From Melioribacteraceae bacterium (GTDB lineage: Bacteria; Bacteroidota; Ignavibacteria; Ignavibacteriales; Melioribacteraceae), in NCBI GenBank assembly GCA_021647785.1, contig JAKIUC010000010.1, positions 1 to 64,000 of the forward strand: 64,000 nucleotides of DNA, in the 5' to 3' direction. The notes beneath the pieces were generated by a model. The model did no database searches. It saw nothing but the letters and a program-made list of their open reading frames with translations, and had not been told where the DNA came from. A program made the translations under genes and the position numbers. Shown in pieces: positions 6,244 to 47,291 of the stretch (the stretch's first letter is position 1; each line of letters begins with the position of its first letter).

Positions 6244-7473
6244 TTACTGTAGTTGTATATTGATCTCCATATGATTCCAAAGATAATTAATTGTATGTGC
6301 TCTCCCTTTTTCATTTTTCATTGCATCAGACCAAATAAGAATCATTTTTTTTCCATCATCACTAATCCACTTAGGAGATAATTTTGGCTGGTACGTAAGC
6401 TCTTTTTCATTCTCAGCAATCCAGTAATCTGTATAATAAAATTGCGTCCACGGTCCATAAGGATTTTCGGAATACCAGAAACCGAGACTTCCGGTTTTAG
6501 TATGCATCCACGAATGATAATAATCTTCATCTCCTTTAGTCATTCCTTTTCCGCCATAGGTTCCGCCATTTACCATAATGTAAAGGTTCAAACCTTCGTT
6601 CCAAACAACAGAGGGAAGCCATGAATACCACCCAAAATATTCATCATTTCTATTTTTTTCCGGATAGTCATATACAGTCCCCCTTTTGCTTATATCACTT
6701 GTCCAATTTGGTTTATCACCATCCCAGCCGCTAAAATACTCCCACTTATCCCTTTGTTCAATCTCTTTATTATTTACTCGGGCTAATAATAATCTGTTAG
6801 CATGTGCTCCTTCGGGTGAGTAGATATATACATATTCATCTTTGGCAGCATTATTATCCTGACCATTCTGGACAAATGTACAATATGAAAATGGATATGC
6901 TGCTATACTATCTCTGGTTTGTCCAAATTCTTCAAACGAAAACATCTCCGCTTTAGTTAAATCTTCCCTTGATAGAGAATCAAAAGGCTCTAATAAACGT
7001 TCTTCTCCATCTCTATTCACACGATACCAGTTTTCGCCATTATCGGAAGATTTTAACATTTTAATTCCGCGAAATGGACCGCTCCACCAAGTACCTTGTG
7101 TTCTTGAAACCATAGAATAAATATTTCCATTAACAGAATAGATGCCATAACCAAACCAACCCCCACCAGCCCATGTAAACTGAGGATAACTTGGAATGTC
7201 TTCTATTGTAAAATCTTCAGCATTACCAATAATTCGATAAACAGTATGGTGGTACATTACATCGCGATTAAGCCAATTCCCATCATCCATAGAAGTCATT
7301 TGGCTACCATCTTTTAACCATGTAATACACCAGTTATCTCCTTTTAATCCTATACGTTTTATTGTCTCAGTTTTAAACTCTACCCCAGTAGGAACAACAC
7401 TTAATTTGTTATTGCAGCCGTTCAAAATAAATATGACCATAACCAACAATAATGTTAAAATAACTTTTCTCAT
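6244..7473 (-). CDS. DUF4185-like secreted lipoprotein (second of a tandem pair)
   Basis: A 409-residue lipoprotein: leader MRKVILTLLLVMVIFILNGC with the lipobox Cys at residue 20. The body contains repeated aromatic blocks such as GDNWCITWLKDGSQMTSM, MVNGGTYGGKGMT, SLGFWYSENPYGPWTQFYYT and LSPKWISDDGKKMILIWSD, a pattern seen in DUF4185 and related five-bladed beta-propeller proteins of saccharolytic bacteria. No catalytic residue can be named. It is a paralogue of the gene just upstream, colinear along its whole length, with 15 bases between them. An AAGGA site precedes the ATG. A role in binding or trimming a glycan at the cell surface is inferred from context only. Confidence 0.7.
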   Translation of the reverse strand: MRKVILTLLLVMVIFILNGCNNKLSVVPTGVEFKTETIKRIGLKGDNWCITWLKDGSQMTSMDDGNWLNRDVMYHHTVYRIIGNAEDFTIEDIPSYPQFTWAGGGWFGYGIYSVNGNIYSMVSRTQGTWWSGPFRGIKMLKSSDNGENWYRVNRDGEERLLEPFDSLSREDLTKAEMFSFEEFGQTRDSIAAYPFSYCTFVQNGQDNNAAKDEYVYIYSPEGAHANRLLLARVNNKEIEQRDKWEYFSGWDGDKPNWTSDISKRGTVYDYPEKNRNDEYFGWYSWLPSVVWNEGLNLYIMVNGGTYGGKGMTKGDEDYYHSWMHTKTGSLGFWYSENPYGPWTQFYYTDYWIAENEKELTYQPKLSPKWISDDGKKMILIWSDAMKNEKGRAHTINYLWNHMEINIQLQ

Positions 7474-7488
7474 TTTAGTCCTTATATT

Positions 7489-8730
7489 TTATTTAAGATT
7501 TATGTTAATTTCCATCTGATTCCACAAATAATTTTGTTCATGAAAACTTCCTTTGGCGTTTCTCATATTATCGGACCAAATCAATATCATAGTTTTACCA
7601 TCTTCACTAATCCACTTGGGCGATAACTTAGGCTGGTAGGTTCTATTTCTTTCTGTTTCAACCGTCCAATAATCTGTGTAATAAAATTGTGTCCAAGGTC
7701 CATAAGGGTTTTTGGAATACCAGAACCCGAGACTTCCCGATTTTGTGTGCATCGAATTGTTAAAATAATCCTCATCAGAATCTGTTAGATTACGCCCTGC
7801 ATAGGTGCCGCCATTTACCATTATGTAAAGATTTAATCCAGGGTTCCAAACTACAGATGGAAGCCAGGAGTACCAGCCAAAATACTCGCCCTCTCCATTT
7901 TTTTCAGGAAATATATGTGCCACATCTCGTTTGCTAAGGTCATTTGTCCAAGTGGGATTATCACCATCCCAACCACTAAAGAATTCCCACTTATCCCTTA
8001 GTTCAATTTCCTTATTATTTACACGAGCTAATAATAAGCGATTAGCCTGTGCTCCTTCCGGCGAGTAGATATAAATGTATTCATCCTTTGCAGCATTGTT
8101 ATCTTGCCCATTCTGTACAAATGAACAAAATGAAAATGGATAAGCAGTAATGCTGTCGCGGGTTAAACCAAGTTCTTTAAGAAAAAACATTTCCTCTTTA
8201 CTGGAATCTGTTCTAGCAGCATCCCAAGGTTCCAAATAACGTTCCTCTCCGGCTCTATTTACACGATACCAATTCTCACCATTATCAGGTGATTTTAACA
8301 TTTTCATACCTTCAAACGGACCGCTCCAATCAGCACCTGGGGTTCTAGAAACCATCGAATAAATATTTCCATTTGCTGAATAGATACCATAGCCATACCA
8401 GCCATGCCCAAACGTAGTATATTGAGGATAATTTTTAATTCTTTCAACTGTAAAATCTTTAGCATCGCCATTTACACGGTAGAGCGTATTGTGATAATTA
8501 TGCCCCCCTTTTTTCCAATATTCAAAGACTACCCAATTACCATCACATAAGGAGGTCATTTGGCTTCCATCCTTAAGCCATGTAATGCACCAGTTATCAC
8601 CTTTAATACCGAAATGTTTTAACGTCTCAATCTTGAGGTCAACTCCAGAAGGAACTTTTGTTTTACTATTGCAGCCATTCAATATAAAAGTGCTCATTAC
8701 TAAAAGTAATAATAGATTATTCCTTTTCAT
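7489..8730 (-). CDS. DUF4185-like secreted lipoprotein (first of a tandem pair)
   Basis: A 413-residue lipoprotein with the leader MKRNNLLLLLVMSTFILNGC. It aligns from end to end with its downstream neighbour: GDNWCITWLKDGSQMTSLCD, SPEGAQANRLLLARVNNKEI and SLGFWYSKNPYGPWTQFYYT are nearly the same in both. The pair arose by tandem duplication. The aromatic, glycine-rich blocks fit a DUF4185/beta-propeller fold, but I cannot identify an active site. An AAGGA precedes the start. The gene begins a new transcript unit or follows a 156-base gap after the aldolase gene. Function: unknown secreted glycan-related protein. Confidence 0.7.
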   Translation of the reverse strand: MKRNNLLLLLVMSTFILNGCNSKTKVPSGVDLKIETLKHFGIKGDNWCITWLKDGSQMTSLCDGNWVVFEYWKKGGHNYHNTLYRVNGDAKDFTVERIKNYPQYTTFGHGWYGYGIYSANGNIYSMVSRTPGADWSGPFEGMKMLKSPDNGENWYRVNRAGEERYLEPWDAARTDSSKEEMFFLKELGLTRDSITAYPFSFCSFVQNGQDNNAAKDEYIYIYSPEGAQANRLLLARVNNKEIELRDKWEFFSGWDGDNPTWTNDLSKRDVAHIFPEKNGEGEYFGWYSWLPSVVWNPGLNLYIMVNGGTYAGRNLTDSDEDYFNNSMHTKSGSLGFWYSKNPYGPWTQFYYTDYWTVETERNRTYQPKLSPKWISEDGKTMILIWSDNMRNAKGSFHEQNYLWNQMEININLK

Positions 8731-8886: not shown

Positions 8887-9942
8887 TTACGATAACCATC
8901 TATCCAAATTTTCAGCAACAAATTTATCATCATTCAGTTCGGGATAGATTGAATAAATTCTATCAATTTCTGCAGATTGACCAGGGCTTAAAACTTCTTT
9001 TGTACCAATAGTATTTATCTCTTCAAAAAATCCTTGACGGCGCAACACTTCGTGAATACCGGCAATTGAACCAACAAAATTATTCCGAACATCAAAAAAT
9101 GCTTCGTTGGAATCTGTAACTTTAATTCCTAATGTTAATAATCCAGGGATATCTTCCGGTGATGCAGTTTTAATTTTGTTAAGAATTTCTACTGCTGTTT
9201 TTGTCCAAACAGCCCAATGCCCAAGCAGACCGCCGACAAATCGTTTCTTAATTATTTTGCTTCCAACCGGAATTGCATACTCTGTTAAAAGGTCTGGAAT
9301 TATATTATCATCATTGCCAGTATAAAGAGCAATTTCCTCAGCTCTGTTCGATTCGGCCACACCGCGAATAACATCATAAGTTTGATACCTATTAAAGGGA
9401 GCCATTTTAATTGCAGCAACATTTTCAATATTCACAAATTCCCTCCAAAAATTTGTATCTAAAGTTCTTCCTCCAACAGCTGGCTGTAAGTAAAAACCGA
9501 TAAGTGGAATTATATCAGCAATAGTTTTACAATGTTCAATAATCACTTCGTTGGATTCACTTCTAAATGCTGCTAAACTTAGCAGCACGGCATTGTACCC
9601 CAAATCGGCAGCGGTCTCTGCCTCTTTTACGGCTTGTTCAGTTTTCCCAAGTACACCGGCAATTCTTATAATTTCTTTATTGTTTTTTGCTGTAAAATTA
9701 TCAATCTCTTCTTTCCCTAATTCTAAAACCGGTTTGTATAAACCAGTTTCACGAATCTCAAACTGACTTGTATGAACACCAATTGCCAATCCGCCAGAGC
9801 CTGATTCAAGATAATATCGTGATAACGCTCTTTGCCTTCTTTCATCTAACTTCAATTCTTTAGTTAATGCAGTAGGGTTTGCGGGGATGGCAACTCCTTT
9901 GTGCAATATCTTATTTAATTTTTCTGATAACATAGTACTCAT
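8887..9942 (-). CDS. DapA/NanA-family pyruvate-type aldolase or lyase
   Basis: A 351-residue cytosolic class I aldolase of the dihydrodipicolinate synthase/N-acetylneuraminate lyase superfamily. The Schiff-base lysine is Lys179 in AAIKMAPFN and the catalytic tyrosine is Tyr151 in GFYLQPAVGGRT. Their 28-residue spacing equals that of E. coli DapA (Tyr133, Lys161). The C-terminal part is longer than in DapA (about 290-300 residues) and the substrate loop after Tyr151 is unlike DapA or NanA, so a true lysine-pathway role is unlikely. It ends a four-gene operon behind an epimerase, an M20 amidohydrolase and an Nramp-like transporter, 10 bases after the epimerase. I infer retro-aldol cleavage of a keto acid produced by its neighbours. 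Confidence 0.85.
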   Translation of the reverse strand: MSTMLSEKLNKILHKGVAIPANPTALTKELKLDERRQRALSRYYLESGSGGLAIGVHTSQFEIRETGLYKPVLELGKEEIDNFTAKNNKEIIRIAGVLGKTEQAVKEAETAADLGYNAVLLSLAAFRSESNEVIIEHCKTIADIIPLIGFYLQPAVGGRTLDTNFWREFVNIENVAAIKMAPFNRYQTYDVIRGVAESNRAEEIALYTGNDDNIIPDLLTEYAIPVGSKIIKKRFVGGLLGHWAVWTKTAVEILNKIKTASPEDIPGLLTLGIKVTDSNEAFFDVRNNFVGSIAGIHEVLRRQGFFEEINTIGTKEVLSPGQSAEIDRIYSIYPELNDDKFVAENLDRWLS

Positions 9943-9952
9943 TTATTTTCCC

Positions 9953-10990
9953 TTAATATTTACCATCTCTAACTTCAAAGTGTGTTGGTTTCCCCAAAGT
10001 TGTTTTCTCTTTCGAAATCCAATTTGCAGTCCATTTAATAACTTGTTGAAGTGAAACATCTGGTTTACCAATTACTTTATGTGATTCGGATACATTTACA
10101 AGTAGTGCACTATCAGCTTCCTTTCCTGTAAATATAATTTCTTTGTTCATTAACTTTCCTAATTCAGTTGCAACTTCACGAACTGATATTGTTTCAGCTC
10201 CAGATATATTTAGATGTTTTGCTGGCGATTTGCATACTCGCAATGATTGTAAAATCATAGCATTAGCATCCCCCTGCCAAATTACAGTTGCATAACCCAT
10301 CGATAAATCAATAGACACCTCATTATTAACTCTTGTTGCTAAATCAACAAGTACACCATATCTCATTTCTACAGAATAGTTTAAACGAATAATTGCTATT
10401 TCTGTTTTATTTTTGATACTACCATATTCAAATAATCTTTCTCTACCTAAGCATGATTGAGCATATTCGCCCACTGGTATTGGAGTATCTGTTTCTACAG
10501 AACCACCAGATTTAACATTTACTAATGGATAAACACAACCAGTTGAAAGAGCAACTATTCTAGAATTTTTAAATTTTTCTGCAACAAGTCCAGGCAAATA
10601 AGAATTCATTGCCCAAGTAAATGATTCATTACCATTAGTTCCAAACTTCATCCCAGCGAGGTAAACAACATTCTTTACTTCTGGAAGTGAGTTGATAAAT
10701 TCTTGATCTAATAAATCCCCTTTTATAGTTTCAATTCCACTCTCCTCTAAATATATTTGATGCTCTTCCGATGAGAATCTTGAAACACCAATAATTTTCT
10801 TTTCAACCCCTGCTTCTTCACATGCTCTGTTAGCCATACGAGCCATTGAAACACCCATTTTCCCGGCAACACCAAGAAAAATAAAATTGCCATCAAGTGT
10901 TTCCATCATATTAATTAGCTCAGGTGTTGGTCTAGAAATTGCTTCTTCCAGTTCGGTTTCAGTATTAAAATATTCGGGATAACTATCCAT
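9953..10990 (-). CDS. NAD(P)-dependent epimerase/dehydratase family protein (extended SDR)
   Basis: About 345 residues with an N-terminal Rossmann motif GVAGKMG and the strand pattern VVYLAGMKFG and VALSTGCVYPL of extended short-chain dehydrogenases. The usual catalytic YxxxK is not obvious: the expected place reads GEYAQSCLGRERLFEY, so the lysine position holds Cys. The enzyme may use a different general base, or the motif may be displaced. The ATG at 10990 overlaps the TGA of the preceding M20 gene (TGATG), which implies translational coupling; an upstream TTG at 10993 is less likely. In context it probably oxidises, epimerises or dehydrates the compound released by the M20 enzyme. No specific substrate is claimed. 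Confidence 0.8.
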   Translation of the reverse strand: MDSYPEYFNTETELEEAISRPTPELINMMETLDGNFIFLGVAGKMGVSMARMANRACEEAGVEKKIIGVSRFSSEEHQIYLEESGIETIKGDLLDQEFINSLPEVKNVVYLAGMKFGTNGNESFTWAMNSYLPGLVAEKFKNSRIVALSTGCVYPLVNVKSGGSVETDTPIPVGEYAQSCLGRERLFEYGSIKNKTEIAIIRLNYSVEMRYGVLVDLATRVNNEVSIDLSMGYATVIWQGDANAMILQSLRVCKSPAKHLNISGAETISVREVATELGKLMNKEIIFTGKEADSALLVNVSESHKVIGKPDVSLQQVIKWTANWISKEKTTLGKPTHFEVRDGKY

Positions 10991-12111
10991 CAATAACTTT
11001 CTCCATTATTAGTTATAATGTTTTTATAAATTTTTACTGCTTCTTCAATTTTATTAACATAACAGAATTCATCTGTTTGATGTGACATTTCAGGTTCACC
11101 TGGTCCTAAAATTATGGTTGGCACATTGCCTAACCATGGGGTTAGAACTGCTGCATCAGTTAAATATGAAACTGATTTTTTACTCCACTCTACATTGTTA
11201 ATTTCCTTGCAAACTTTATAAACCATTTGTATAAACGGATTTTCTTCTGATGTTGAAATCGCATCTAAATTTGTATATTCCTCTAACAAAACTCCATCAC
11301 CAAGTTCTTTTTTTAATATTGCAAATGCACTATTATTATTGAGCTTTGTTGTTGAACGAACATCGATAGTAAATTCTGCTTTATCAGGAACGGAATTTAA
11401 ATTTAATCCACCACTTATTTTACCAACATTTATTGTTGGATATCCTAACAACGGATCTTGCTCAACATCAAAACTAAACTTTGCAATCTTTGTAATTGCA
11501 TCGGCAGCTTTGTAAATAGCATTCTCTCCAAGTTCTGGCATTGATGAATGTGCTGTAATACCAAGTGTTTTAGCGTTTATAAATAATCCGCCTTTGTGAC
11601 TAATGTATGGAATATTGGATGTTGGCTCTCCCACAATAATTGCAGAAGCTTCCCCAATATCATAATTAGATGTAAGTAGTTTTTTTGCCCCGCGACATCC
11701 AAGTTCTTCATCAGCCGTAAGGATTAATTTAACTCCACCTTTTGGACTATTTTCATTGAACGATTCAACTACTGCTACAATCATAGCAGCAAGCCCGGCT
11801 TTCATATCGGTTGTGCCTCGCCCAAATAATTTTCCATCAATAATTTTTGAATTAAATGGATCCACACTCCAATCCTTTGCTCCCAAAGGGACAACATCAA
11901 AATGCCCTGTTAAAATAATTGGCTGATATGTTTCAGACAAGCCACGACTTGCAATTAAGTTCAGCCTGCCTACTTCATGTTTTTGAAAATCAACATCAAA
12001 CCCATGTTCTAAAAATATTTCTCCAACAAATTTAGCTATACCCTCTTCATTGCCTGGAGGATTTATAGTATTAAATTTTACTAAATCTTTTGTTAATGTT
12101 ACAACATCCAT
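10990..12111 (-). CDS. M20-family metallo-amidohydrolase (ArgE/DapE-like deacylase or peptidase)
   Basis: A 373-residue cytosolic protein of full M20 length. The two-metal site is visible: His70 in GHFDVVPLG, Asp102 in GRGTTDMKAGLAA, and Glu135-Glu136 in ADEELGCRG, plus a C-terminal His in PEMSHQTDE. A dimerisation domain interrupts the catalytic domain as in ArgE and DapE. Such enzymes remove N-acyl groups or terminal residues. It is 14 bases downstream of the Nramp-like transporter and overlaps the epimerase start by one base. With an aldolase at the end of the operon, N-deacylation of an imported compound is a reasonable inference. An amino-acid biosynthesis role is less likely, as no such genes are nearby. 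Confidence 0.88.
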   Translation of the reverse strand: MDVVTLTKDLVKFNTINPPGNEEGIAKFVGEIFLEHGFDVDFQKHEVGRLNLIASRGLSETYQPIILTGHFDVVPLGAKDWSVDPFNSKIIDGKLFGRGTTDMKAGLAAMIVAVVESFNENSPKGGVKLILTADEELGCRGAKKLLTSNYDIGEASAIIVGEPTSNIPYISHKGGLFINAKTLGITAHSSMPELGENAIYKAADAITKIAKFSFDVEQDPLLGYPTINVGKISGGLNLNSVPDKAEFTIDVRSTTKLNNNSAFAILKKELGDGVLLEEYTNLDAISTSEENPFIQMVYKVCKEINNVEWSKKSVSYLTDAAVLTPWLGNVPTIILGPGEPEMSHQTDEFCYVNKIEEAVKIYKNIITNNGESY

Positions 12112-12125
12112 TTACAATTCCTTTA

Positions 12126-13340
12126 CTAAATATTACCTATAAACATTATTAGTTTATTAAACATATAATAAACCATTATTAAAATTAAAATAAATCCAAA
12201 TATTCCTAAACCATTCTGCAATTTATTATTTATATATTCTCCCATTACTGCTTTATTATTTGTTATAAGAAATATTCCTACTGCAATTAAAGGAACTCCA
12301 AATAGTGATGAAGCCTGTGCCATTATTAAGGCATAGATAATATTTCCTTTAAAGAATACAGCAATCAACATTCCTGTAATTAAAATAACGGAAGTAAATA
12401 TTTTCGGCATCTTATCATTCATCGAGCTACCAAGGTTAAGGCTATCGGAAAGCAACCCGCCACCAATAACTGCATTTACCATTAATGATGAAAAACCAGC
12501 CGCACACAAACCTGCACTAAATATGTATTTAGCATAACTTCCGAAAAGTGTTTCCAACTGCACTGCCATATCAGCTGCACTGTTAACAACAATGCCCGCC
12601 GGATGCAACGCAGCGGCAGAAGTGATGATAATCATTACAGTAACTAAGCCCAGCATTATTACACCCATGTTTGAGCTTGCAACACCTTCGCTAATATTAT
12701 TTTTCTTCCATCCTTTATCACGAACAAGATAGGCTTGATACATTGCAGCGGGCAATACAAATGTTGTGGCAACAAGAGCCACAATTTCATCAAAATTATT
12801 ACTTGAAAATGAAAGGGGTAAAAATCCTTTTGCAACAGAAATTAAATTTGGTTTTATTAGAATAAGATTAAATGCGAAAGCTGCAATCATAATCATTACT
12901 AAAAACATCATTATTTTCTCTAAAATCTTATAAAGATTTTTCGTATAAAATATTAACACTATACCGAGAGGAGTAAAAATTAAGGGCCATACATATTCAT
13001 CAACACCAGTAATAGCACCCATTGCAATACCGATACCAAGGTTATTACCAAACTGCCAGCTAATTGCAGCAAAGAATGCTGCAACACCGATAGATACTGC
13101 AAACCATTTGCTATATTTTTCGGAGATAGTTTTTAATATTGAATCTTCATTCACAATTCCAAAACGGGCTGCCATTGATGTATAAATAACCATTGAAATA
13201 CCGGCAACTACAACAACCCAAAGAAAATTGAACCCACTTTTAGAACCTATACTTGATGCTACTGTAATACTACCTGGACCTAACACAAGCGACGCTAAAA
13301 TAAATGCAGGTCCAATCGATTTAATTATTTTTTTAATCAT
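12126..13340 (-). CDS. Nramp-related (APC superfamily) transporter with altered substrate motifs
   Basis: A 404-residue membrane protein with about 11 helices and the overall pattern of the Nramp/SLC11 family. The first helix reads LVLGPGSITVASS (residues 19-30), where canonical Mn/Fe transporters have a DPGN metal-binding motif; here the Asp and Asn are gone. The helix-6 region reads VLPAAMYQAYLV (195-206) in place of the MPH motif. Loss of both metal-binding motifs argues against classical manganese transport. It opens an operon with an M20 amidohydrolase, an epimerase and an aldolase, so an organic solute is a credible substrate, though Mg2+ or another ion cannot be excluded. An AAGGAT site precedes the ATG. 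Confidence 0.78.
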   Translation of the reverse strand: MIKKIIKSIGPAFILASLVLGPGSITVASSIGSKSGFNFLWVVVVAGISMVIYTSMAARFGIVNEDSILKTISEKYSKWFAVSIGVAAFFAAISWQFGNNLGIGIAMGAITGVDEYVWPLIFTPLGIVLIFYTKNLYKILEKIMMFLVMIMIAAFAFNLILIKPNLISVAKGFLPLSFSSNNFDEIVALVATTFVLPAAMYQAYLVRDKGWKKNNISEGVASSNMGVIMLGLVTVMIIITSAAALHPAGIVVNSAADMAVQLETLFGSYAKYIFSAGLCAAGFSSLMVNAVIGGGLLSDSLNLGSSMNDKMPKIFTSVILITGMLIAVFFKGNIIYALIMAQASSLFGVPLIAVGIFLITNNKAVMGEYINNKLQNGLGIFGFILILIMVYYMFNKLIMFIGNI

Positions 13341-13561: not shown

Positions 13562-15160
13562 CTAAATTATCCTTCGTTTAATAGGATCCCATTCAACTTT
13601 TCTATTTTCAACATAAGATTTATGTACCATCATTACTGAAACAGTATCTTGGAACGCTTTTTCGATATTGCAGCCTGTCGTTCCACCATTTCTTATTACA
13701 TCAATCCAGTCTTTAATATGAAGGTGAGTTATATCAATGTTTTTACCTTTTACACTAGTATTAATAAGTCCACGTTCTGCATAATATTTTTCAGTAGCAG
13801 AAGTAATTCCATCAAGTTCTATATTTTTTTGCGGATAAGTATAAAATGGTCGAGCAGGGCTAATCAATCCATTTTTAATTTTATCCTTATATTGTGGTGA
13901 ATCTCTATTAGCAATTACTTTTAAACTTCTTCCAACTTCCATAGAAGCATCATTCCCCATAAATACTTTTCCTCTATTACGACTATTTGCAAGGGAAGCA
14001 CTATAGAGCATTGTAAATTCCCTATCAGGGAACTCAAGAACTGACTGAAAAGTGTCAGGCATATCACGCCCCTCTTTGTGGAAATATATTCCGCCAGAGG
14101 ATGTAACAGTTTTTGGAATGCCAAATCCCATCACCTGATTTATCGCATCAACTTCGTGCGAGAATAATTGTCCAGCGAGACCGGTATCGTAAGCAAACCA
14201 CCTAGCCCATCCATAATAACGCTCAATGCTAAATGGAATTTTGGGTGTGTTCCCAAGCCATTGTTCCCAATCGATAGTTTGTAGTGACCCAGGTTTAGGA
14301 TTACCCTCTTTATCCAAATGTCTAATCCAAGCACCATTTTTTGTGTTTCTGTTAGTTGTTGCTTCAATTAAAGTAACCTTACCAAGTATATTTTTATCAA
14401 CAATTTCCTTTGCTTTATTTATTGCTTCGCTTTTACTATTCTGATGCCCAAGCTGAAATACAACTCCGCTTTTCTTTACTTCAGCATAAACTTCGTGGAG
14501 TTCATCTTCCGTTAGCGTCATAGCTTTTTCACAATAAACATGTTTACCAGCTTTAACTGCATCGATAGTCATATGTGCATGGTGAAAATCTGGGGTAGCT
14601 ATAATTACTGCGTCAATATTGGGGTTGGCTAATAAATCTTGATATCTCCGATACCGCTTTACCCCTTTCAAATTAGCAGGCTCGCCATTTGGCTCTATTC
14701 CGTTTGATGCTGTATTTATTCCTTGTTCAGCCCGCAAATCAAAAACTTCGCAAATGCCAATAATTTCTACATTCAACCTTTCCTGATTATAATAGGTTTG
14801 CAATCTTCTCTTAGCTCCGGCATTGTTCTTTTTTGCTTCTTTATAAAATTTCTCATAAGTCTCTGGTTTGTAAAACCCAGCAGCGTTCATTAATTGTGCA
14901 CCTCTACCACCAACTCCAATTATACCAATGCGAATTTTATCTTTTGAATTCCCCATCGAACTATTTTTGATTACCGCGGGTGCATCTTTGCTAAGTCCAA
15001 GGTCAAAATGCATTGCTTTATTTTTTGCACTCTCCAATGTTTTCTTTTTCCAATAATCATAAGCAAAAACGCCTAATATAGGAACCGTTGAAAATCCCTT
15101 AATTGCATCTCGTCGGGATATTTGATTTTTCGATTGTTCATTTGATTCTTTTTCAGCCAT
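13562..15160 (-). CDS. TAT-exported Gfo/Idh/MocA-family oxidoreductase (DoxX-paired, long type)
   Basis: A 532-residue paralogue of the oxidoreductase at 742-2376. The leader has a twin-arginine motif (ISRRDAIKGFSTVPILG, residues 14-30). GVGGRG at 82-87 binds the nucleotide, and the EKP motif reads EKA at 211-213, the same change as in the other DoxX-paired enzyme. The substrate-side block reads YDTGLAGQLFSHEVD, where Gln replaces an Asp of its paralogue, so substrate may differ. Its start overlaps the end of the DoxX gene by 8 bases, with an AGGAG site inside that gene, which implies coupled translation. The predicted role is periplasmic oxidation of a glycoside, possibly the first step of the 3-keto route with the DUF1080 proteins upstream. 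Confidence 0.88.
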   Translation of the reverse strand: MAEKESNEQSKNQISRRDAIKGFSTVPILGVFAYDYWKKKTLESAKNKAMHFDLGLSKDAPAVIKNSSMGNSKDKIRIGIIGVGGRGAQLMNAAGFYKPETYEKFYKEAKKNNAGAKRRLQTYYNQERLNVEIIGICEVFDLRAEQGINTASNGIEPNGEPANLKGVKRYRRYQDLLANPNIDAVIIATPDFHHAHMTIDAVKAGKHVYCEKAMTLTEDELHEVYAEVKKSGVVFQLGHQNSKSEAINKAKEIVDKNILGKVTLIEATTNRNTKNGAWIRHLDKEGNPKPGSLQTIDWEQWLGNTPKIPFSIERYYGWARWFAYDTGLAGQLFSHEVDAINQVMGFGIPKTVTSSGGIYFHKEGRDMPDTFQSVLEFPDREFTMLYSASLANSRNRGKVFMGNDASMEVGRSLKVIANRDSPQYKDKIKNGLISPARPFYTYPQKNIELDGITSATEKYYAERGLINTSVKGKNIDITHLHIKDWIDVIRNGGTTGCNIEKAFQDTVSVMMVHKSYVENRKVEWDPIKRRII

Positions 15161-15620
15161 TACTTTTGCTCCTATACTTTTTTACTAACATATCAACTCC
15201 AATAAAACAGCTTGTTGGAAAGAGTGCGATAATTAAAAATGCAAATAGCTCCAATAGATTTTTATCAATAAAAATATAACTTTCTATAAATGGAGGGATT
15301 GCTATATAATACATAAAAAGCATTAAAGCTCCGAGCAGTGCTGCTGTAGTTGAAAACAATCCAACTATTAAAGCTATTCCAATAAATATTTGACCCCAAA
15401 CATTTATTAAATCTACAGCACTTAATAGTAATGGGCTTTCTGCTATAAACTGGAATACCCCAGAGAACCACCAATTGGATTGCAAAAGAAATCCGGATGA
15501 AGTCCAGTTAGGACTAAATAATTTATCAACGCCTTCAAAAAGGAAATGATACCCAACTATTAATCGTAGCAGAACTAAAACAATAGTTTGTGCTTGCGAA
15601 TATTTAATTTTACTTTTCAA
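15153..15620 (-). CDS. DoxX-family membrane protein (paired with oxidoreductase), TTG start
   Basis: A 155-residue four-helix membrane protein, paralogous to the one at 2392-2895. Shared features are LIVGYHFLFEGVDKLF in helix 1 (conserved His, Glu, Lys), the NWTSSGFL loop against DWSAAGYL, and the WW pair that follows. The start codon is TTG, supported by a GGAG 6 bases upstream and no better ATG. The gene overlaps the oxidoreductase that follows by 8 bases, a stronger coupling than in the other pair. The second occurrence of the same gene order makes a joint function likely. Electron transfer from the periplasmic enzyme to quinone is my inference. Confidence 0.83.
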   Translation of the reverse strand: MKSKIKYSQAQTIVLVLLRLIVGYHFLFEGVDKLFSPNWTSSGFLLQSNWWFSGVFQFIAESPLLLSAVDLINVWGQIFIGIALIVGLFSTTAALLGALMLFMYYIAIPPFIESYIFIDKNLLELFAFLIIALFPTSCFIGVDMLVKKYRSKSNG

Positions 15621-19128: not shown

Positions 19129-19917
19129 TTAATTAATTATCTTTATTTTTATATTTCTATACCAGCAATCATTACCATGATCTTGAAGAACAATATGAGC
19201 ATCTTTATGCAACGTAAAATCTTTGTATATGTGATACTTACTTTTCTGGTATAGGCTATCAAATTCTGGCGAAGCTGTATTTGCCTCTAAAACTTTTTTT
19301 CCATTTAACCAGTGCTCTATTAGACTTTCATTAAATACTATTTTTGCAGTATTATATTCTCCCACTGGTTTCAGAAATGTTTCTTTAGCTTCAATTATAT
19401 CATAGAGAGAGCCTGTCCTATGTGTAGGATTTAGATTGTCAATATGCTTTTCATCATCTAAAACTTGGTATTCATATCCAAGTGCATTTGCCGAACCATT
19501 CTTAATTGAGAACTCTTCAATAACATTATATTTTACTCCACTGTTTCCTGCTTCACTAATTTTCCATTCAAACTTTAATTCATAATTTTTAAAAGTTTTT
19601 TTTGTCATTAAATCTCCCCCTTTTAATGGTTGTCCATCTTCCCTTGTAGGAACATTCCCACTTGCAATTTTTTGAATTGAACCTTTGTCAATTTTCCAAT
19701 GCCCAGTTGGTACTCCATCAATACCAATGCCTCGCCAACCATCAAAAGATTCTCCGTCAAATAGTAATTGCCAACCATCAGCAACTTCTTCTTTTGATAA
19801 ATTATTTATAGACATTTCTTGTTCTCCATTTTTATCACATTTAGTACAGCTAACATTTAATAGAATTATTAGAATAGTTAATATAATTCCAATAATTTTC
19901 TTTCCGTTTTTCATCAT
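19129..19917 (-). CDS. DUF1080 lipoprotein, tandem copy 2
   Basis: A 262-residue lipoprotein with lipobox Cys in LLNVSCTKCDKN. The DUF1080 hallmarks are GWQLLFDGESFDGWRGIGI, NYELKFEWKISEAGNSGVKY, GYEYQVLDDEKH and the C-terminal IVLQDHGNDCWYRNIKIKI. It is a tandem duplicate of the next gene upstream: leader, length and nearly every motif match, and the sequence before the start is also shared. A GGAG lies 8 bases from the ATG. It should act at the cell envelope on oxidised glycosides or as a glycan binder. The differences cluster in the middle (residues 150-175), so specificity may have diverged. Confidence 0.85.
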   Translation of the reverse strand: MMKNGKKIIGIILTILIILLNVSCTKCDKNGEQEMSINNLSKEEVADGWQLLFDGESFDGWRGIGIDGVPTGHWKIDKGSIQKIASGNVPTREDGQPLKGGDLMTKKTFKNYELKFEWKISEAGNSGVKYNVIEEFSIKNGSANALGYEYQVLDDEKHIDNLNPTHRTGSLYDIIEAKETFLKPVGEYNTAKIVFNESLIEHWLNGKKVLEANTASPEFDSLYQKSKYHIYKDFTLHKDAHIVLQDHGNDCWYRNIKIKIIN

Positions 19918-19948
19918 TCTTTTATCTCCAATAAAGTTAAATTTAATA

Positions 19949-20017
19949 TTATTGATTTGGGGGTATTTTTGAATTTATATATTTTATAGTAACAATAGCT
20001 AAAACATTTGCAACTCC
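19949..20017 (-). pseudogene. 3'-terminal fragment of a DUF2271 gene carried by the DUF1080 duplication
   Basis: On the minus strand the 69 bases translate as GVANVLAIVTIKYINSKIP and a few more residues before a TAA. This matches the C-terminus of the intact DUF2271 gene, GAENVLVGVTIKYIDSEIP, at 20978 onward. The downstream bases up to the DUF1080 start match too. The fragment therefore marks one end of the tandem duplication. Confidence 0.85.
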
Positions 20018-20090
20018 AGTCCTCCTACGGACTACTTACGTTACCCCAAGTTCTCTTTGTTATTTTCACTTAGTTTATAATAAAGCATCA

Positions 20091-20106
20091 ATCCCGAAAG
20101 CGGGAT
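20091..20106. repeat. Short palindrome ATCCCG-AAAG-CGGGAT
   Basis: A 6-bp stem with an AAAG loop in the gap between the two DUF1080 genes, close to the join left by their duplication. A second small hairpin (AGTCC/GGACT) lies at 20018-20033. Neither has a T-run in the direction of transcription. Confidence 0.6.
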
Positions 20107-20154
20107 AAAATTTTACAGTTTATTATTTAGTTATGTTAAATTTAGAAGAGTATA

Positions 20155-34530: not shown

Positions 34531-35934
34531 TTATTTAACATGTCCTGCTGGTCTTAGATTTTGTTTTAATTCTGCATCAAAATCATCTGCTGCCTTTGAA
34601 AGGCGTTTTACGATTTCGGGATATTCATCAGCTAAGTTTGTACTTTCACTTATATCTTTTTCAATATCAAATAATGAAAGATTGATATAACCTCTTCTCC
34701 ATTTACCAGAATTCCCATCCTTACCAGGTTCTATAATCTCTTTGAATTGATGAGGGAGATGCATTTTCCACTTACCACTGCGGACTGCCTGCAGTTCATT
34801 GTAATTATAGAAATAGAAAATGTCAGTGGGTGTTTTGGCATTTGCTTCTCCAAAGATTAATGGTTGAATATCATTACCATCAATTTTTAACTTAGGCATT
34901 TTTGCATTTGCTAATTTTACAAAAGTTGGAAGAACATCCATTGTGGTAACTAACTCATCACACACTTTTCCGCTTGGAATTTTGCCTGACCATTTCATAA
35001 TAGATGGAACTCTTTGTCCGCCATCAAATGTAGTACCTTTACCCTCGCGTAATGGTTTGGCAGAGCCACCGTGATTACCATAAGTAAGCCAAGGACCATT
35101 ATCGGATGTAAATAGAACTAACGTATTTGTATCAAGATTAAGTTCTTTAAGTTTGTTGAGAATCTCTCCAACAGACCAGTCTATTTCCATTATCACATCA
35201 CCATATAACCCCTGCTTCGATTTTCCTTTAAATTTATCGGAAACAAAAAGCGGCACATGAGGCATTGAATGTGCAAGGTAAAGAAAGAAAGGTTTCTCTT
35301 TATTTTTCTCTATAAAATCAACAGCTCGTTCGGTATAGCGTGTAGTTAACTGAGATTGGTCAGGATTGAATTCAATAGCTTTACTACCATCAATTAAAGG
35401 GATGGGAGGGAATTGCCCTAATTTAGCCTTTGGATTAAGCGGCCACATATCATTAGAATATGGAAGACCAAAAAATTCATCAAATCCATGTTGGGTTGGT
35501 AAAAATTCTTCTACATCTCCTAAATGCCATTTACCAATACAAGCCGTTGCATAACCTGCGTCTTGCAGCAGCTCTGGCAAGGTTTGCTCTATCTTGTTAA
35601 TACCAGTCTTACTTGCAGGGCGTAATACTCTTTCTAATCCCACACGTAATGGATAAGCTCCTGTAAGAAGTGATGCTCTTGAAGGTGTACAAGATGGTGC
35701 AGCAACATAAAAACTTGTAAACCTCATTCCCTCGTCTGCCATCGCATCTAAGTTTGGCGTCTCAAATCCTTCTGCTCCAAAACTACCAACATCAGCATAA
35801 CCTTGGTCATCAGTGAAAATAATAATAAAATTGAGTTGTTTATTGTTTTCGGATTGCGCTAACATTGTTTCATTAAAAGAAAAGTTAATTATAATAAATA
35901 TGATAGCAATAAAATTAATTGTTCGATTTTTCAT
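34531..35934 (-). CDS. Sulfatase (S1 family, formylglycine-dependent)
   Basis: A 467-residue secreted sulfatase (signal peptide ending NETMLAQ). The formylglycine Cys82 lies in SCTPSRASLLTGAYPLR. Metal-binding acids are in IIIFTDDQGYADVGSFG and VLFTSDNGPWLTYGNHGG, and the substrate loop has YLAHSMPHVPLFVS. The overall form is close to arylsulfatase A and the large Bacteroidota sulfatase subfamilies acting on galactose or N-acetylgalactosamine sulfate; the exact subgroup cannot be set by eye. It is 100 bases upstream of the PhoD-like gene and 239 bases after the next sulfatase. It should act in the periplasm on oligosaccharides. Confidence 0.93.
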   Translation of the reverse strand: MKNRTINFIAIIFIIINFSFNETMLAQSENNKQLNFIIIFTDDQGYADVGSFGAEGFETPNLDAMADEGMRFTSFYVAAPSCTPSRASLLTGAYPLRVGLERVLRPASKTGINKIEQTLPELLQDAGYATACIGKWHLGDVEEFLPTQHGFDEFFGLPYSNDMWPLNPKAKLGQFPPIPLIDGSKAIEFNPDQSQLTTRYTERAVDFIEKNKEKPFFLYLAHSMPHVPLFVSDKFKGKSKQGLYGDVIMEIDWSVGEILNKLKELNLDTNTLVLFTSDNGPWLTYGNHGGSAKPLREGKGTTFDGGQRVPSIMKWSGKIPSGKVCDELVTTMDVLPTFVKLANAKMPKLKIDGNDIQPLIFGEANAKTPTDIFYFYNYNELQAVRSGKWKMHLPHQFKEIIEPGKDGNSGKWRRGYINLSLFDIEKDISESTNLADEYPEIVKRLSKAADDFDAELKQNLRPAGHVK

Positions 35935-35958
35935 GTGTTTATAATTTCCTAAAAGTTT

Positions 35959-36048
35959 GTCATTCCCCCAAAGGGGCAGGCTGTTATGCTTTAAGACGGA
36001 ATCTCGCTAGATTTTTTAGATTCCAGCTAAAAAATTGCATGAATGACA
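35959..36048. repeat. 90-bp element with TGTCATTC/GAATGACA ends
   Basis: The ends are 8-bp inverted repeats. Inside are CCCCC-AAA-GGGG and a GGAATCT/AGATTCC stem. Elements of the type GTCATTCC...GGAATCTAG are widespread bacterial palindromic repeats. Size and ends match the element at 15683-15773. Part of it (AAGGGGCAGGCT and following TTAAG) recurs near 41291-41314. Confidence 0.7.
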
Positions 36049-36173
36049 GGTTTTTTTATAATCATCCTCTTGTGTGTTTTCCACAATCATGAATGTTTCA
36101 TAATAATAAATATTTTCATTTTAGTTCTATCCAATTATTTTTTTTAATATTTATTTTAAAAAACTTCTTACAA

Positions 36174-37649
36174 TTAATATAAAGTTTTATTTTTACTATA
36201 CTTTTCATTTAGCAGCCAACGGTCGTCTGTCTTTACTCGCTGATTGTGCAGTTTTTCATATAACTCTTTTTTAATTGCACTATACTCTTTTTTATATGCA
36301 AGGTTCAGAGTTTCATTCGGGTCTTTTTCAATATCATATAATTCAAATTCTGGTCTCATTAAATATTCTTTTACAGAGCGCTTACCCATATATTCCATTT
36401 TATTATCAAGAATTGCTTGCCATGTTTTGGATGAGTATAAATCAGTCGCAAATGGGAATTCTAATTCAGGAAATAAATTGTGAATGAGGTGATATTTTTG
36501 ATTGCGAATTCCCCTCATAGGATAATACATTGTAATTTCATGAAACGTATGAGATTGATATACTTCATCCCATCCATCGGGATTCTCCTTGTTCAAAACC
36601 GATAAAAATGATTTTCCAGGCAGCTCGTAATCTGGACCATTGCTGTTTGTCCAATCAAGTATGGTTGGGGTAATGTCAGTAAAACTAATAAAAGCATTAG
36701 TGAATTTTCCTTTCTCTTTTATTGATGGGGATACAACAATCATTGGCATATTTAAACCGGAATCGTACAGTGTTGTTTTTGCTCCGGGGAATGGAATTCC
36801 GTTATCGCTAATGTAGATAATTAAAGTATTTTCAAATCTACCAGATTCTTTTAACTCTTTTATTAATAGTCCAACACCCTTATCCATTCTGGATATCGAC
36901 TCATATTGCTCGGTAAGTTCTTCTCTAACTGCTAATACATCCGGCAAATATCCGGGAACTACAACATCCTTAGTATCATATTTTATCGGTTCGATACCCG
37001 GGTAATCAAAATCGTTTCCAAATCCTAACCAGTTCTCTGTCAAACTATGCTTCCAAGTACCAAAAACTCTATGTGGATCACTATAACCCATAACTAAGAG
37101 AAAAGGATTTTCTTTATCAGAATTAAAGAATTCACTAGCTTTTTTTGCCATTGTAAATACATCTCGGTTTCCCATTATTTCATCACTTTTTACTTCAAGA
37201 TAGAAAGGGAATTTTGAATCAGGAGCAACGTGTTTTTTTCCGATAATGCCAGTCTTGTATCCATTTTTCTTTAATAGTTGCGGTAATGTTTCTACGTAAT
37301 TCAAAAAACTAAAGTGATGCCACTTATGAGCATGTCCGTATAATCCACTCGAGTGAGGATATAATCCTGATAGAATAGTTCCTCTGCTGGCTGTGCAAGA
37401 TGCTGAAACAGCAAAGGCATTATTGAATCTAACTCCTTCTTCTGCAAGTTTGTCTAAATTGGGTGTCTTTATTTTATCATTTCCATAACATCCTAATTGA
37501 TATTTTCCATGATCATCAGAAATTATTAATAATATATTTTTTTGAATTTTCTGATTTACTTGATTTTCATCAGGACTAATACAGCTATTAATTCCTGTAG
37601 TTGCTACAATAAAAACTATTATTATGGTAAATTTCCGAAATGTGAACAT
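36174..37649 (-). CDS. Sulfatase lipoprotein with CxAxR site
   Basis: A 491-residue lipoprotein sulfatase (leader ending TTGINSC). The formylglycine site reads Cys85 in SCTASRGTILSGLYPHSSG; the third position is Ala rather than Pro, a known and usually active variant. Other blocks are LLIISDDHGKYQLGCYG, IYISDNGIPFPGAKTTLYD and the long C-terminal YDIEKDPNETLNLAY. The SSGLYGHAHKWHH segment resembles sulfamidase-like S1_8 enzymes, as in the sulfatase at 23269. Two such enzymes suggest N- or O-sulfated amino sugars, matching the GH20 in the window. The upstream gap contains a palindrome at 37748-37768. Confidence 0.9.
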   Translation of the reverse strand: MFTFRKFTIIIVFIVATTGINSCISPDENQVNQKIQKNILLIISDDHGKYQLGCYGNDKIKTPNLDKLAEEGVRFNNAFAVSASCTASRGTILSGLYPHSSGLYGHAHKWHHFSFLNYVETLPQLLKKNGYKTGIIGKKHVAPDSKFPFYLEVKSDEIMGNRDVFTMAKKASEFFNSDKENPFLLVMGYSDPHRVFGTWKHSLTENWLGFGNDFDYPGIEPIKYDTKDVVVPGYLPDVLAVREELTEQYESISRMDKGVGLLIKELKESGRFENTLIIYISDNGIPFPGAKTTLYDSGLNMPMIVVSPSIKEKGKFTNAFISFTDITPTILDWTNSNGPDYELPGKSFLSVLNKENPDGWDEVYQSHTFHEITMYYPMRGIRNQKYHLIHNLFPELEFPFATDLYSSKTWQAILDNKMEYMGKRSVKEYLMRPEFELYDIEKDPNETLNLAYKKEYSAIKKELYEKLHNQRVKTDDRWLLNEKYSKNKTLY

Positions 37650-44954: not shown

Positions 44955-47291
44955 TTAATCATTATCAACTTTAATTTCCAATTTTGATGGCACCTCTCTT
45001 TTTTCAGAGGCACTAATTGAGAGTAGAATAATTCCATTATCTGGTGCGAACCCTTTCTTACGCCACATTTTTTGATCAAATTCTTTTACTCCAACTAAAT
45101 TTACTTTTTTAATTGTTTTACCAAAACGAGGGCTTCTCCACTCGTAGGCATAAAAAGTTATTGGAGTATTCTCATCGTTAGAACAATCCACCGCATCAGC
45201 GGCATAGGCATATTTACCAGGTTTTGTTTCGGCAGAGCGTGAAGTCCACTCCAAAATATGAACACCGTATCTAATAGGTATAGTAACAACAAAACCATCT
45301 TCGTAAATAACTTCGTACCAGCCAATTAAATCTGCCGATTCAGGAAAAGCATGTCGCACTTTGTTAGCTTTTATATTTTTCCCAGGCTTCAAAGATGCAT
45401 GTAAAAAGATAAGACTGTTTACATCTTTATCAATAACAATTCCATTTAATCTATTATTTTCACCAGTACTAGTGCTATCACTTCTTACTAAAATAGCATC
45501 CGATGATTTTGGAAGTGAAAATTTTACAGAAGCGGCACTAACTTCACCATCAATCAAATTCTCGAAATCTCGAGATATCTCTGTTGATAAATTAGAATTA
45601 AAAAATTCAGAAATATCAAACTGAACCAATGGATTATTATCCAAACTTGGAGGATTAACACCGCGGAAGTTTTTGCGTACAACTGGCATCATTTGTTGCA
45701 CAGTTTTCGTAAGTTCTTTTTCAGTAGGAAGATGTTCTGACCAGAGCATATTTGCACTTCCCAAGTATTCGTACAACATATCTTTACCAAAATTATACTC
45801 TGTAGCCGCTGCCCACGATGATGGAGCGCCACCAATCATATTTTCTTTAGCTGCACGTTCTTTATAATTTTTAATTCCAGGTTTCATATTTCCATAAGCT
45901 GTTTGTGTAAAACCTAAATCAGTATATGCACTATCACTTTTTTCGCCCCAAATATGCCCCCACATCCAGTTAAAAATTAGAATATCTTTTGGGATTGAAC
46001 TACGCACACGCTCCGGTGATATTGCACCAGGTACATTGTAATGTGTTCCGTCAGCAAACTCCTCCACTCGGAAGCCTTTATTGCGAACCATTTCCAATAA
46101 GTGATCACCCCACATTGCAGATTTTACACCTTTCGCACTTAAATAGTTGTAGATTTTATTTATATCCTCAATAAATAAATCTTGATAATCCTTATCCTTG
46201 CAAAGATCACACACACCAAAATTCACCCGCCATTCATCTTTCCCAATATGAATCATTTCAGGTTTCATCACATCAATATATTCATCAAACACATCAAAGA
46301 GTAGTTCATAACTTCCTGGCTCCGATGGACAAAATGTATCTGGCCATTCTGCATCCTTTTGCTCGGCTAAATGACGGTGGCGTGTTAAAAGAAAATAGGC
46401 ATGGGATAGTGAAGGGATTTCGGGAATCACATCAATGAAATTTGCACGGGCAAACTCTACTAAATCTGCAACATCATCTTGTTCCAAAATTTGTCCATCA
46501 GCAAGCTGATAGTGCGAATCGTCCGTGCCTTCGCCATTAGGTCCGCTCGGACGGTTACGGCGTGTATATAACAATGATTTATTGAAATCAACAGTTCCGG
46601 CATTTAACTCGGGATGTTTTTTCAAACGCATATTACTATTAATTTGTATTACCACTTTATTGTATTTGTACAAAGCCATAAAGTCACGCAGAAATCTTTT
46701 AAAGAAGGGAATATTTTCATGCCCAGGTAGAAAAAGGTGAATACCCCTGAAAGGAAGAGTTGGTTTATCAAAAACTAAAAGACCCGGAGCTTCAACAACA
46801 TCGTTTTTCTTTTTTAATATTTGCCGAAGAGACTGCAAACCATAGTAAGCACCAGGCTGATCGAAACCAGCAACAACTATTTGCTTTTGAGATACATCTA
46901 ATATGTAACCCTCTTTTCCTGCTGAATCTAATTTATCTTGCAAATCATTTTTTGAGATATAACTTTTAATCAACTCATTTTCTTGCGAAGCTATTAAAAA
47001 GTAATTACCGCTTTCAGGAAGTTGGTCTGTTTCAACAACCAAAACCGCAGTCCCAAATTGGTCACTTAATTCTGCAGAGAGAAAGCTGGCAAGAAACAAA
47101 TCTTTTTCGTCAGGATTTGTGGGCACCAAAATTTCTGTTTTTTCATTTACGCTAAAAGTCTCTCCCGTAAGCTCCAATTGCTGCGGGTAAGGAAAAATTA
47201 GAGGCGAATCATCCGAAGATGCCATCACGCTAAATGTGAAAATTGAAAAACATAAAAATAATGTTATCTTAATTTGTTTGTTAAATATCAT
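44955..47291 (-). CDS. GH20 beta-N-acetylhexosaminidase
   Basis: A 778-residue exported GH20 enzyme (signal IKITLFLCFSIFTFSVMASS). A GH20b-type N-domain (residues 30-175) precedes the catalytic barrel beginning RGIHLFLPGHENIPFF. The catalytic pair is Asp352-Glu353 in MIHIGKDEWRVNF. In the usual HxGGDE motif, GGDE reads GKDE here. The C-terminal part is a beta domain of about 150 residues. The enzyme removes terminal GlcNAc or GalNAc from glycans by substrate-assisted catalysis. A strong AAAGGAG site precedes the ATG, and the upstream 113 bases carry a palindrome and a direct repeat that could be regulatory. The natural partner sugars may be mucin- or glycosaminoglycan-like. Confidence 0.9.
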   Translation of the reverse strand: MIFNKQIKITLFLCFSIFTFSVMASSDDSPLIFPYPQQLELTGETFSVNEKTEILVPTNPDEKDLFLASFLSAELSDQFGTAVLVVETDQLPESGNYFLIASQENELIKSYISKNDLQDKLDSAGKEGYILDVSQKQIVVAGFDQPGAYYGLQSLRQILKKKNDVVEAPGLLVFDKPTLPFRGIHLFLPGHENIPFFKRFLRDFMALYKYNKVVIQINSNMRLKKHPELNAGTVDFNKSLLYTRRNRPSGPNGEGTDDSHYQLADGQILEQDDVADLVEFARANFIDVIPEIPSLSHAYFLLTRHRHLAEQKDAEWPDTFCPSEPGSYELLFDVFDEYIDVMKPEMIHIGKDEWRVNFGVCDLCKDKDYQDLFIEDINKIYNYLSAKGVKSAMWGDHLLEMVRNKGFRVEEFADGTHYNVPGAISPERVRSSIPKDILIFNWMWGHIWGEKSDSAYTDLGFTQTAYGNMKPGIKNYKERAAKENMIGGAPSSWAAATEYNFGKDMLYEYLGSANMLWSEHLPTEKELTKTVQQMMPVVRKNFRGVNPPSLDNNPLVQFDISEFFNSNLSTEISRDFENLIDGEVSAASVKFSLPKSSDAILVRSDSTSTGENNRLNGIVIDKDVNSLIFLHASLKPGKNIKANKVRHAFPESADLIGWYEVIYEDGFVVTIPIRYGVHILEWTSRSAETKPGKYAYAADAVDCSNDENTPITFYAYEWRSPRFGKTIKKVNLVGVKEFDQKMWRKKGFAPDNGIILLSISASEKREVPSKLEIKVDND

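Follow-up and report, generated by a model that had tools for sequence, protein, structure and literature searches.

Several described routes for the use of sugar acids share parts with the locus analyzed here, which lies in a window of 64,000 nucleotides from a Melioribacteraceae bacterium. Sialic acid catabolism (NanT-NanA-NanE-NanK) combines an importer with a Schiff-base aldolase of the NAL superfamily, as does the window operon, whereas the nan pathway has no SDR, M20 enzyme, or serine lyase. The degradation of alginate and uronates passes through a lyase, a DEH reductase of the SDR type, KDG, and an aldolase, and the logic of lyase, SDR, and 2-keto-3-deoxy-acid aldolase is common to both; that pathway relies on a kinase and KDPG aldolase, whereas the window operon encodes a DHDPS-type aldolase. 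In the oxidative chitin (ong) pathway of Pseudoalteromonas, a deacylase followed by a serine-deaminase-like enzyme converts GlcNAc1A to KDG after import by a single symporter (PMC9537276). Its D-aminoacylase and PLP D-serine-type deaminase likewise act on an amino sugar acid, and the cluster contains neither an SDR nor a DHDPS-type aldolase. Finally, the Nramp family protein PxpT/YcsG is needed for growth on 5-oxo-L-proline, a cyclic N-acyl amino acid (PMC13274462); this is a likeness by literature precedent alone, and the enzymes of pxpTABC form a 5-oxoprolinase, with no aldolase or SDR. A search of the literature, in which subscription-only descriptions could be missed, returned nothing relevant on a function or pathway for the gene set described below.

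The window operon occupies positions 8887-13340 and comprises genes for an Nramp-related transporter, an M20 deacylase, an SDR (EPI), and an aldolase (ALD), all on the minus strand. In line with the preliminary description, 14 bases separate the transporter and M20 genes, the M20 and SDR genes overlap by a single base (TGATG), and 10 bases lie between the SDR and aldolase genes. The upstream Gfo/Idh gene (13562-15160) is 221 bases away and the downstream DUF4185-like gene (7489-8730) 156 bases away; an antisense ORF cluster (cluster 13) was left out as a gene-calling artefact. These four co-directional genes are a genuine operon, and their grouping is not due to chance, because the SDR and aldolase genes are adjacent across many phyla and all four genes occur together in 14 loci, which bears out the joint conservation on which the preliminary description depended.

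The aldolase (8887..9942, minus strand; 351 amino acids) matches the DHDPS family (PF00701, 1.9e-08) and has Lys179, Tyr151, and a long C-terminal extension. Its structural model (pLDDT 93.7) retrieves NAL and DHDPS as best Foldseek matches at 14-21% identity (TM about 0.7-0.86), and with its TIM barrel, Schiff-base lysine, and catalytic tyrosine the protein belongs to the DHDPS/NAL class I aldolase superfamily; K179 is found in 124 of 124 and Y151 in 123 of 124 sequences of the family alignment. The GxxGE-type pyruvate-carboxylate motif of canonical DapA and NanA is not found. It reads VHTTQF in the family, V-H-[TS]-[TS]-Q-F across aligned members with the Thr/Ser residues retained, and V-H-T-S-Q-F in the window, confirming the altered pocket that had been proposed earlier. 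The protein keeps its place in the superfamily by fold but is no orthologue of NanA or DapA. A score of 26.2 bits against TIGR00683, far under the cut-off of 382, rules out NanA itself, from which the protein also differs in pocket motif and C-terminal extension; the window operon, having no NanA orthologue, is not a nan cluster of NanA orthologue, NanE, and NanK. Searching PDB sequences with the aldolase profile gave nothing at E<=1e-10 and only weak NAL/DHDPS matches (best, 2.1e-08).

The SDR (9953..10990, minus strand) has 345 amino acids when read from the ATG at 10990, with a TTG also in frame at 10993. Like the aldolase, it has no good family or PDB match, and its hit to Epimerase (PF01370) reaches only 0.00094, slightly under the curated cut-off. 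The AlphaFold model (pLDDT 94.8) has the fold of an extended SDR, with GalE and TerB as Foldseek matches. GxxGxxG, S149, and Y176 are kept, but the lysine of YxxxK is replaced by Cys180 here and by Cys (most members), Thr, Val, or Ser in the family, which sets the protein outside the definition of an NAD-dependent epimerase (GxxGxxG plus Tyr-x-x-x-Lys). K115 is invariant. As the catalytic lysine is missing and an NADP-type S70-R71 follows strand 2, the likelier activity is that of an NADPH-dependent reductase, not of an epimerase.

The transporter gene (12126..13340, minus strand) encodes 404 amino acids of an Nramp-related (G-motif) secondary transporter (PF01566, E 7.5e-63; phmmer against DraNramp, E 3.1e-20). 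It shares the fold family of canonical Nramp/MntH, but the canonical metal ligands, DPGN in TM1 and MPH in TM6, are absent: in the alignment to DraNramp, they read GPGS and LPA, leaving TM6 without its Met/His pair. Among aligned family sequences with a residue at these positions, Gly stands at the Asp position in 21 of 21 and Ser at the Asn position in 20 of 21. The absence of metal ligands led us to reject metal import. The parallel previously drawn with sialic acid breakdown, in which the transporter is unrelated and the aldolase pocket altered, holds in spirit.

The M20 enzyme (10990..12111, minus strand; 373 amino acids) is an ArgE/DapE-type deacylase by its score against TIGR01910 (250.8 bits; cut-off, 217.6), with Pfam matches to Peptidase_M20 (8.7e-34) and M20_dimer (2.6e-18). 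Its di-zinc and catalytic residues are complete (H70, D72, D102, E135, E136, E162, and H344) and unchanged across 18 aligned members.

When 123 aldolase loci, not fully independent of one another, were sampled, the SDR gene lay within 6 kb on the same strand in 103, across many phyla, and distances within the two families correlate (Mantel r, 0.89). The aldolase is present in 29 of 40 Paenibacillus genomes, and the pair also occurs in Bacteroidota, Planctomycetota, Acidobacteriota, Actinomycetota, Alphaproteobacteria, and others. Its annotations go no further than "dihydrodipicolinate synthase family" and "NAD-dependent epimerase." The earlier view of the four genes as a unit is borne out by their recurrence, but the conserved core is the SDR-aldolase pair and not the whole set: the adjacent transporter may be Nramp, MFS, SSF, ABC, or TTT, and M20 genes, which adjoin the pair in 34 loci, come from two unrelated subfamilies, one ArgE/DapE-like and one CpsA/DoeB2-like (relatives of N-acetyl-diaminobutyrate deacetylase), that joined it independently. 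The pair stands without any other tallied partner in 26 loci, and the aldolase has none in 10.

An L-serine ammonia-lyase adjoins the pair in 26 of the 123 loci. Those scanned, from Paenibacillus, Prescottella equi, and one MAG, exceed NCBIfam equivalog cut-offs (TIGR00718/00719/00720 models; 233.9>161.2, 323.7>243.2, 542.7>345.1, and 635>345.1), and in five Paenibacillus genomes with an SdaAB-M20-type operon the SdaAB is a second, dedicated copy. Further neighbors point to amino sugars and lyase-released uronates. A heparinase II/III lyase gene, the element shared with alginate and uronate degradation, lies beside the pair in 24 Paenibacillus loci, and SIS, AgaR-like, and ROK genes are also neighbors in Paenibacillus. 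In a Thermoanaerobacter MAG, a Hepar-domain gene forms a same-strand run with EPI, ALD, and M20, flanked by NanE-like and ROK genes, a combination seen at a single locus (L148). The closest homologous operon (73-74%) belongs to a galactosamine cluster with AgaS, tagatose-6-P-kinase-like, GatY-like, and AgaR genes, and has GH20, sulfatase, and Hepar genes within about 27 kb; GH20 directly follows the aldolase at locus L008, and GNAT acetyltransferases adjoin the pair in 13. Galactonate-dehydratase (over cut-off) or ALDH genes among the neighbors would fit a 2-keto-3-deoxy-acid aldolase that yields an aldehyde. In the window, the same gene cluster encodes a GH20 hexosaminidase-family enzyme (44955..47291, minus strand; PF00728, E 2.1e-17), two sulfatases (34531..37649, minus strand; PF00884), and further sulfatases (23269-24726 and 50925-52325; PF00884). 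Neither the operon nor the scanned parts of the window yielded a lyase gene, and the genome itself gave a single marginal Hepar match, on another contig. Bacteroidota EPI-ALD operons had no adjacent Hepar lyase; three genomes that lack such an adjacent gene show only a modest excess of these lyases near the aldolase (P about 0.003, counted post hoc).

It can tentatively be hypothesized that the operon imports and degrades a sugar acid with an N-acylated amino group, for which a 4,5-unsaturated (4-deoxy-5-keto) N-acetyl-hexosaminuronate is the leading candidate. The linkage, folds, catalytic residues, and loss of metal ligands are established, and we infer the substrate, order of steps, and redox direction as follows. 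A polysaccharide lyase and exo-enzymes would release the substrate from an amino-sugar/uronate glycan, and the Nramp-related protein would take up this organic acid rather than a metal, possibly adding a further case of such transport by this family. The SDR would reduce it, probably at C1 with NADPH, to a 5-acetamido 2-keto-3-deoxy acid, which the aldolase could cleave through a Schiff base on Lys179 into pyruvate and an N-acetyl-serinal-type aldehyde. An unlinked dehydrogenase would oxidize this aldehyde, M20 would deacylate the resulting N-acetyl-L-serine, and a serine dehydratase, operon linked in Paenibacillus, would carry L-serine into pyruvate. Both D-gluco and D-galacto hexosamines would lead to L-serine, and the net conversion of keto acid and water to pyruvate and N-acetylserine would be redox neutral. 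An ALDH for the oxidation is missing from most operons and present only in those of Latescibacterota, and the window's own genome has no Fe-S serine dehydratase gene. Of the order proposed previously (import, deacylation, oxidation or epimerization, and retro-aldol cleavage), the predicted importer, N-deacylase, oxidoreductase, and Schiff-base retro-aldolase of a catabolic operon are retained; M20 probably acts last and frees L-serine, a placement suggested by the recurrent partnership with canonical L-serine ammonia-lyase genes, and the SDR, lacking the lysine, is more likely a reductase. That a new aldolase family cleaves reduced unsaturated N-acetyl-hexosaminuronates to pyruvate and an N-acetyl-L-serine precursor, fed by an Nramp-related organic-acid importer, in a route unknown to date, is a more speculative suggestion, and on the whole an unlikely one. 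Known Hepar-family lyases act mostly on non-aminated uronates, which counts against the proposed reading, as do the missing lyase, Fe-S dehydratase, and aldehyde-oxidizing genes, the loci in which the pair or the aldolase has no other tallied partner, and the modest size of the Hepar excess.

A different source of serine would be uronic acid residues amidated with L-serine, so that the acyl group removed by M20 is the sugar acid itself. After their import, M20 would split the amide into L-serine and uronate, and the SDR, as a reductase, followed by the aldolase, acting on a 2-keto-3-deoxy acid, would degrade an ordinary unsaturated uronate. Canonical L-serine ammonia-lyase partners, an M20 from aminoacylase families, and 11 Paenibacillus loci with a heparinase-family lyase and EPI-ALD without M20 or SdaA all agree with this, and serine would arise without a further step of aldehyde oxidation. 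It leaves unexplained the GNAT genes beside the pair (13 loci) and the AgaS/AgaR, SIS, NanE-like, and GH20 amino-sugar genes, and serine-amidated uronates are rare, whereas the pair is widespread; we regard it as improbable. About equally improbable is an oxidative amino-sugar route, in which an N-acetylhexosamine whose C2 is of the L type (e.g., ManNAc) is oxidized at C1 by the SDR and the aldonic acid so formed is deacetylated by M20; deamination by a serine-dehydratase-type enzyme would then give the 2-keto-3-deoxy acid that the aldolase cleaves. The ong order of deacylase then serine-deaminase-like enzyme is a precedent (PMC9537276), and the NanE-like and ROK genes flanking the Thermoanaerobacter run are in keeping with it. 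Against it, the signature of the SDR is of the NADP type and its catalytic lysine is missing, and the SDR and aldolase, though the conserved core, would not catalyze consecutive steps. The linked dehydratases, moreover, score as canonical L-serine ammonia-lyase, an enzyme type for which we know of no activity on sugar acids.

Somewhat less doubtful than either is that the pair breaks down a compound like a sialic or ulosonic acid, or some other sugar acid, with M20, serine lyase, and Nramp handling host-specific side chains; NAL and DHDPS are the nearest folds and partner genes vary widely, but the recurrence beside the pair of M20 enzymes from two unrelated families and of dedicated serine lyases suggests service to its core products. 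A chance cluster in which an ordinary metal importer lies among housekeeping genes of amino-acid metabolism (a DapE/DapA-like lysine pathway or Mn uptake) is invited by the family names Nramp, DapE/ArgE, and DapA, and is very improbable: the transporter lacks metal ligands, the aldolase reaches only 26 of the 382 bits that TIGR00683 demands, and the module is missing from nearly all relatives yet recurs in distant phyla. Family scores and this distribution led us to reject lysine biosynthesis (DapA/DapE).

Relative to alginate and uronate degradation, the EPI-ALD system stands apart by its extended SDR without catalytic lysine and its added N-deacylase and serine lyase. Knowing its substrate would define the function of a large enzyme family with uninformative names and could reveal how amino-uronic sugars are recycled by bacteria in soil and sea. 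At two loci (L017 and L018), the neighbors include histidine-biosynthesis genes, taken here as incidental.

The preliminary description of a compact minus-strand operon is borne out, with the Nramp-like transporter (NRAMP, 12126-13340), M20 deacylase (10990-12111), SDR epimerase-type protein (9953-10990) and aldolase (8887-9942) separated by 14, -1 and 10 bases. The Pfam hits are Nramp and Peptidase_M20/M20_dimer, together with Epimerase at borderline and DHDPS at weak significance, and only the M20 protein (ArgE/DapE family deacylase) and the transporter (the broad Nramp_1 model) exceed NCBIfam cut-offs. The SDR has no NCBIfam match, and the aldolase scores 26 bits against the NanA cut-off of 382 bits. 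With a pLDDT of 93.7, the aldolase is modelled as a TIM barrel closest in structure to N-acetylneuraminate lyase and DHDPS, with the Schiff-base Lys179 and Tyr151 kept across the family, HTTQF where a GSTGE-type motif is expected, GNDD as the sugar-side loop and a conserved C-terminal extension. For the SDR, the model (pLDDT 94.8) is similar to GalE-type enzymes and to the NADP-dependent TerB; besides S149 and Y176 it has an invariant K115, the catalytic lysine is replaced by cysteine, and S70-R71 follows the pattern of NADP enzymes, such that NADP is the probable cofactor. The M20 protein retains its full set of metal and catalytic residues. As the transporter carries GPGS for DPGN and its TM6 is without the Met/His pair, its sequence places it with the mostly uncharacterised "Nramp-related" proteins, which are without the metal motif (PMC12873925). 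PxpT/YcsG, likewise of the Nramp family, is required for growth on the cyclic N-acyl amino acid 5-oxo-L-proline (PMC13274462).

Gene neighbourhoods were compared across 123 loci on mechanically called ORFs; as the window aldolase was the query, counts are conditional on it, weighted towards Paenibacillus and inclusive of near-duplicates from one genome or close strains. The SDR is co-directional with the aldolase and no more than 6 kb away in 103 of the 123, followed in frequency by M20 (34), the serine ammonia-lyase SdaA (26), heparinase II/III lyase (24), the Gfo/Idh family Gfo4 (20), NRAMP (18) and GNAT (13). The order NRAMP-M20-SDR-aldolase is identical in L010, L014 and L029, NRAMP follows the aldolase in L100 and L101, and a different M20 subfamily lies downstream in L054, L062, L079, L103, L105-L107 and L109. 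SDR, M20 and NRAMP distances track aldolase distances (Mantel r 0.86-0.89), with species relatedness as a confounder. In Aestuariibaculum, a methyltransferase-like ORF (L146:3630-4271) splits the operon between SDR and aldolase. A family of ~450-aa regulators with GGDEF_GdpP-like and Crp-type HTH regions (L060:11874-13232 and 12 further loci), without an NCBIfam match, goes with Bacillota SDR-aldolase operons.

In Paenibacillus, Prescottella equi and one MAG, the serine lyase partners score above the cut-offs of their equivalog models. Five Paenibacillus genomes with SDR-aldolase-SdaAB-M20 hold another SdaA elsewhere, and the operon copy is therefore dedicated; in three genomes with a lyase-type operon it is the sole copy. 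A flavobacterial genome with an M20-SDR-aldolase-NRAMP operon has an SdaA broken by stop codons (G338:C3:154767-155273). The ~689-aa Paenibacillus partner is a Hepar_II_III protein, which probably acts intracellularly on imported oligosaccharide, as no obvious signal peptide was seen by eye at its N-terminus; where no lyase is adjacent, the statistic on how near lyase genes lie was computed post hoc. In a Thermoanaerobacter MAG, a single same-strand run comprises a heparinase-domain gene, a NanE-like gene (by inspection), Gfo/Idh genes, SDR, aldolase, M20, an RpiR-like gene and a ROK gene. In Wocania, AgaS and AgaR genes, kinases and a GatY-like aldolase accompany M20-SDR-aldolase, and a heparinase gene lies within ~27 kb, as do genes judged by inspection or cluster match to be GH20-like, sulfatase-like and GH88-like; the window holds one GH20 and four sulfatases. 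Allomuricauda operons include an above-cut-off galactonate dehydratase, and an aldehyde dehydrogenase follows the aldolase in five Latescibacterota loci.

It can be hypothesized that the substrate is a 4-deoxy-5-keto N-acetyl-hexosaminuronate, which would first be reduced at C1 and then, as the reduced keto acid, be cleaved between C3 and C4, so that one scheme could account for pyruvate as well as for both an acylated L-amino acid and L-serine; the lyase substrate, aldehyde oxidation and step order are assumed. In Fischer projection, the 2-amino carbon of a D-gluco or D-galacto hexosamine becomes the amino carbon of L-serine, and the overall conversion including water is redox neutral. Alternatively, the operon could act on uronates amidated with serine or on some different sugar acid, or could serve an oxidative amino-sugar route that would be analogous to the ong pathway (PMC9537276).

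The aldolase genome scan gave 280 confirmed loci, of which the 80 retained span 52-73% identity. By record titles they cover Bacteroidota, Calditrichota, KSB1, Planctomycetota, Acidobacteriota, Gemmatimonadota, Latescibacterota, Chloroflexota, Armatimonadota and Bacillota, with Actinomycetota and Alphaproteobacteria added from plasmid records; among the loci listed, Wocania ichthyoenteri is the top match. Close SDR homologues were absent from other sampled genomes of the window's order (one distant match in 146), as were close aldolase homologues from 57 relatives (three weak matches), and horizontal gain is therefore likely. In wider samples, 12 of the 397 genomes from one flavobacterial family encode the aldolase, as do 29 of the 40 from one Paenibacillus genus.

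A 112-aa minus-strand ORF (L002:1498-1836; G000:C69:17453-17791), 80% identical in its C-terminal part to aldolase residues 281-351, is by its sequence a remnant of a second aldolase copy; its neighbours are an APH-like kinase, an NTP transferase and an amidohydrolase, and farther along lie UxaC and UxaE genes. In the window, a GH29 fucosidase gene (24744-26159) looks broken, as its N-terminal part, in frame within the ~250 bases upstream, is cut by two stop codons. Repeated gene units there are the tandem DUF4185-like genes (6244-8730), the tandem 3-keto-disaccharide-hydrolase genes (19129-20943) and two DoxX and Gfo/Idh pairs (742-2895 and 13562-15620).
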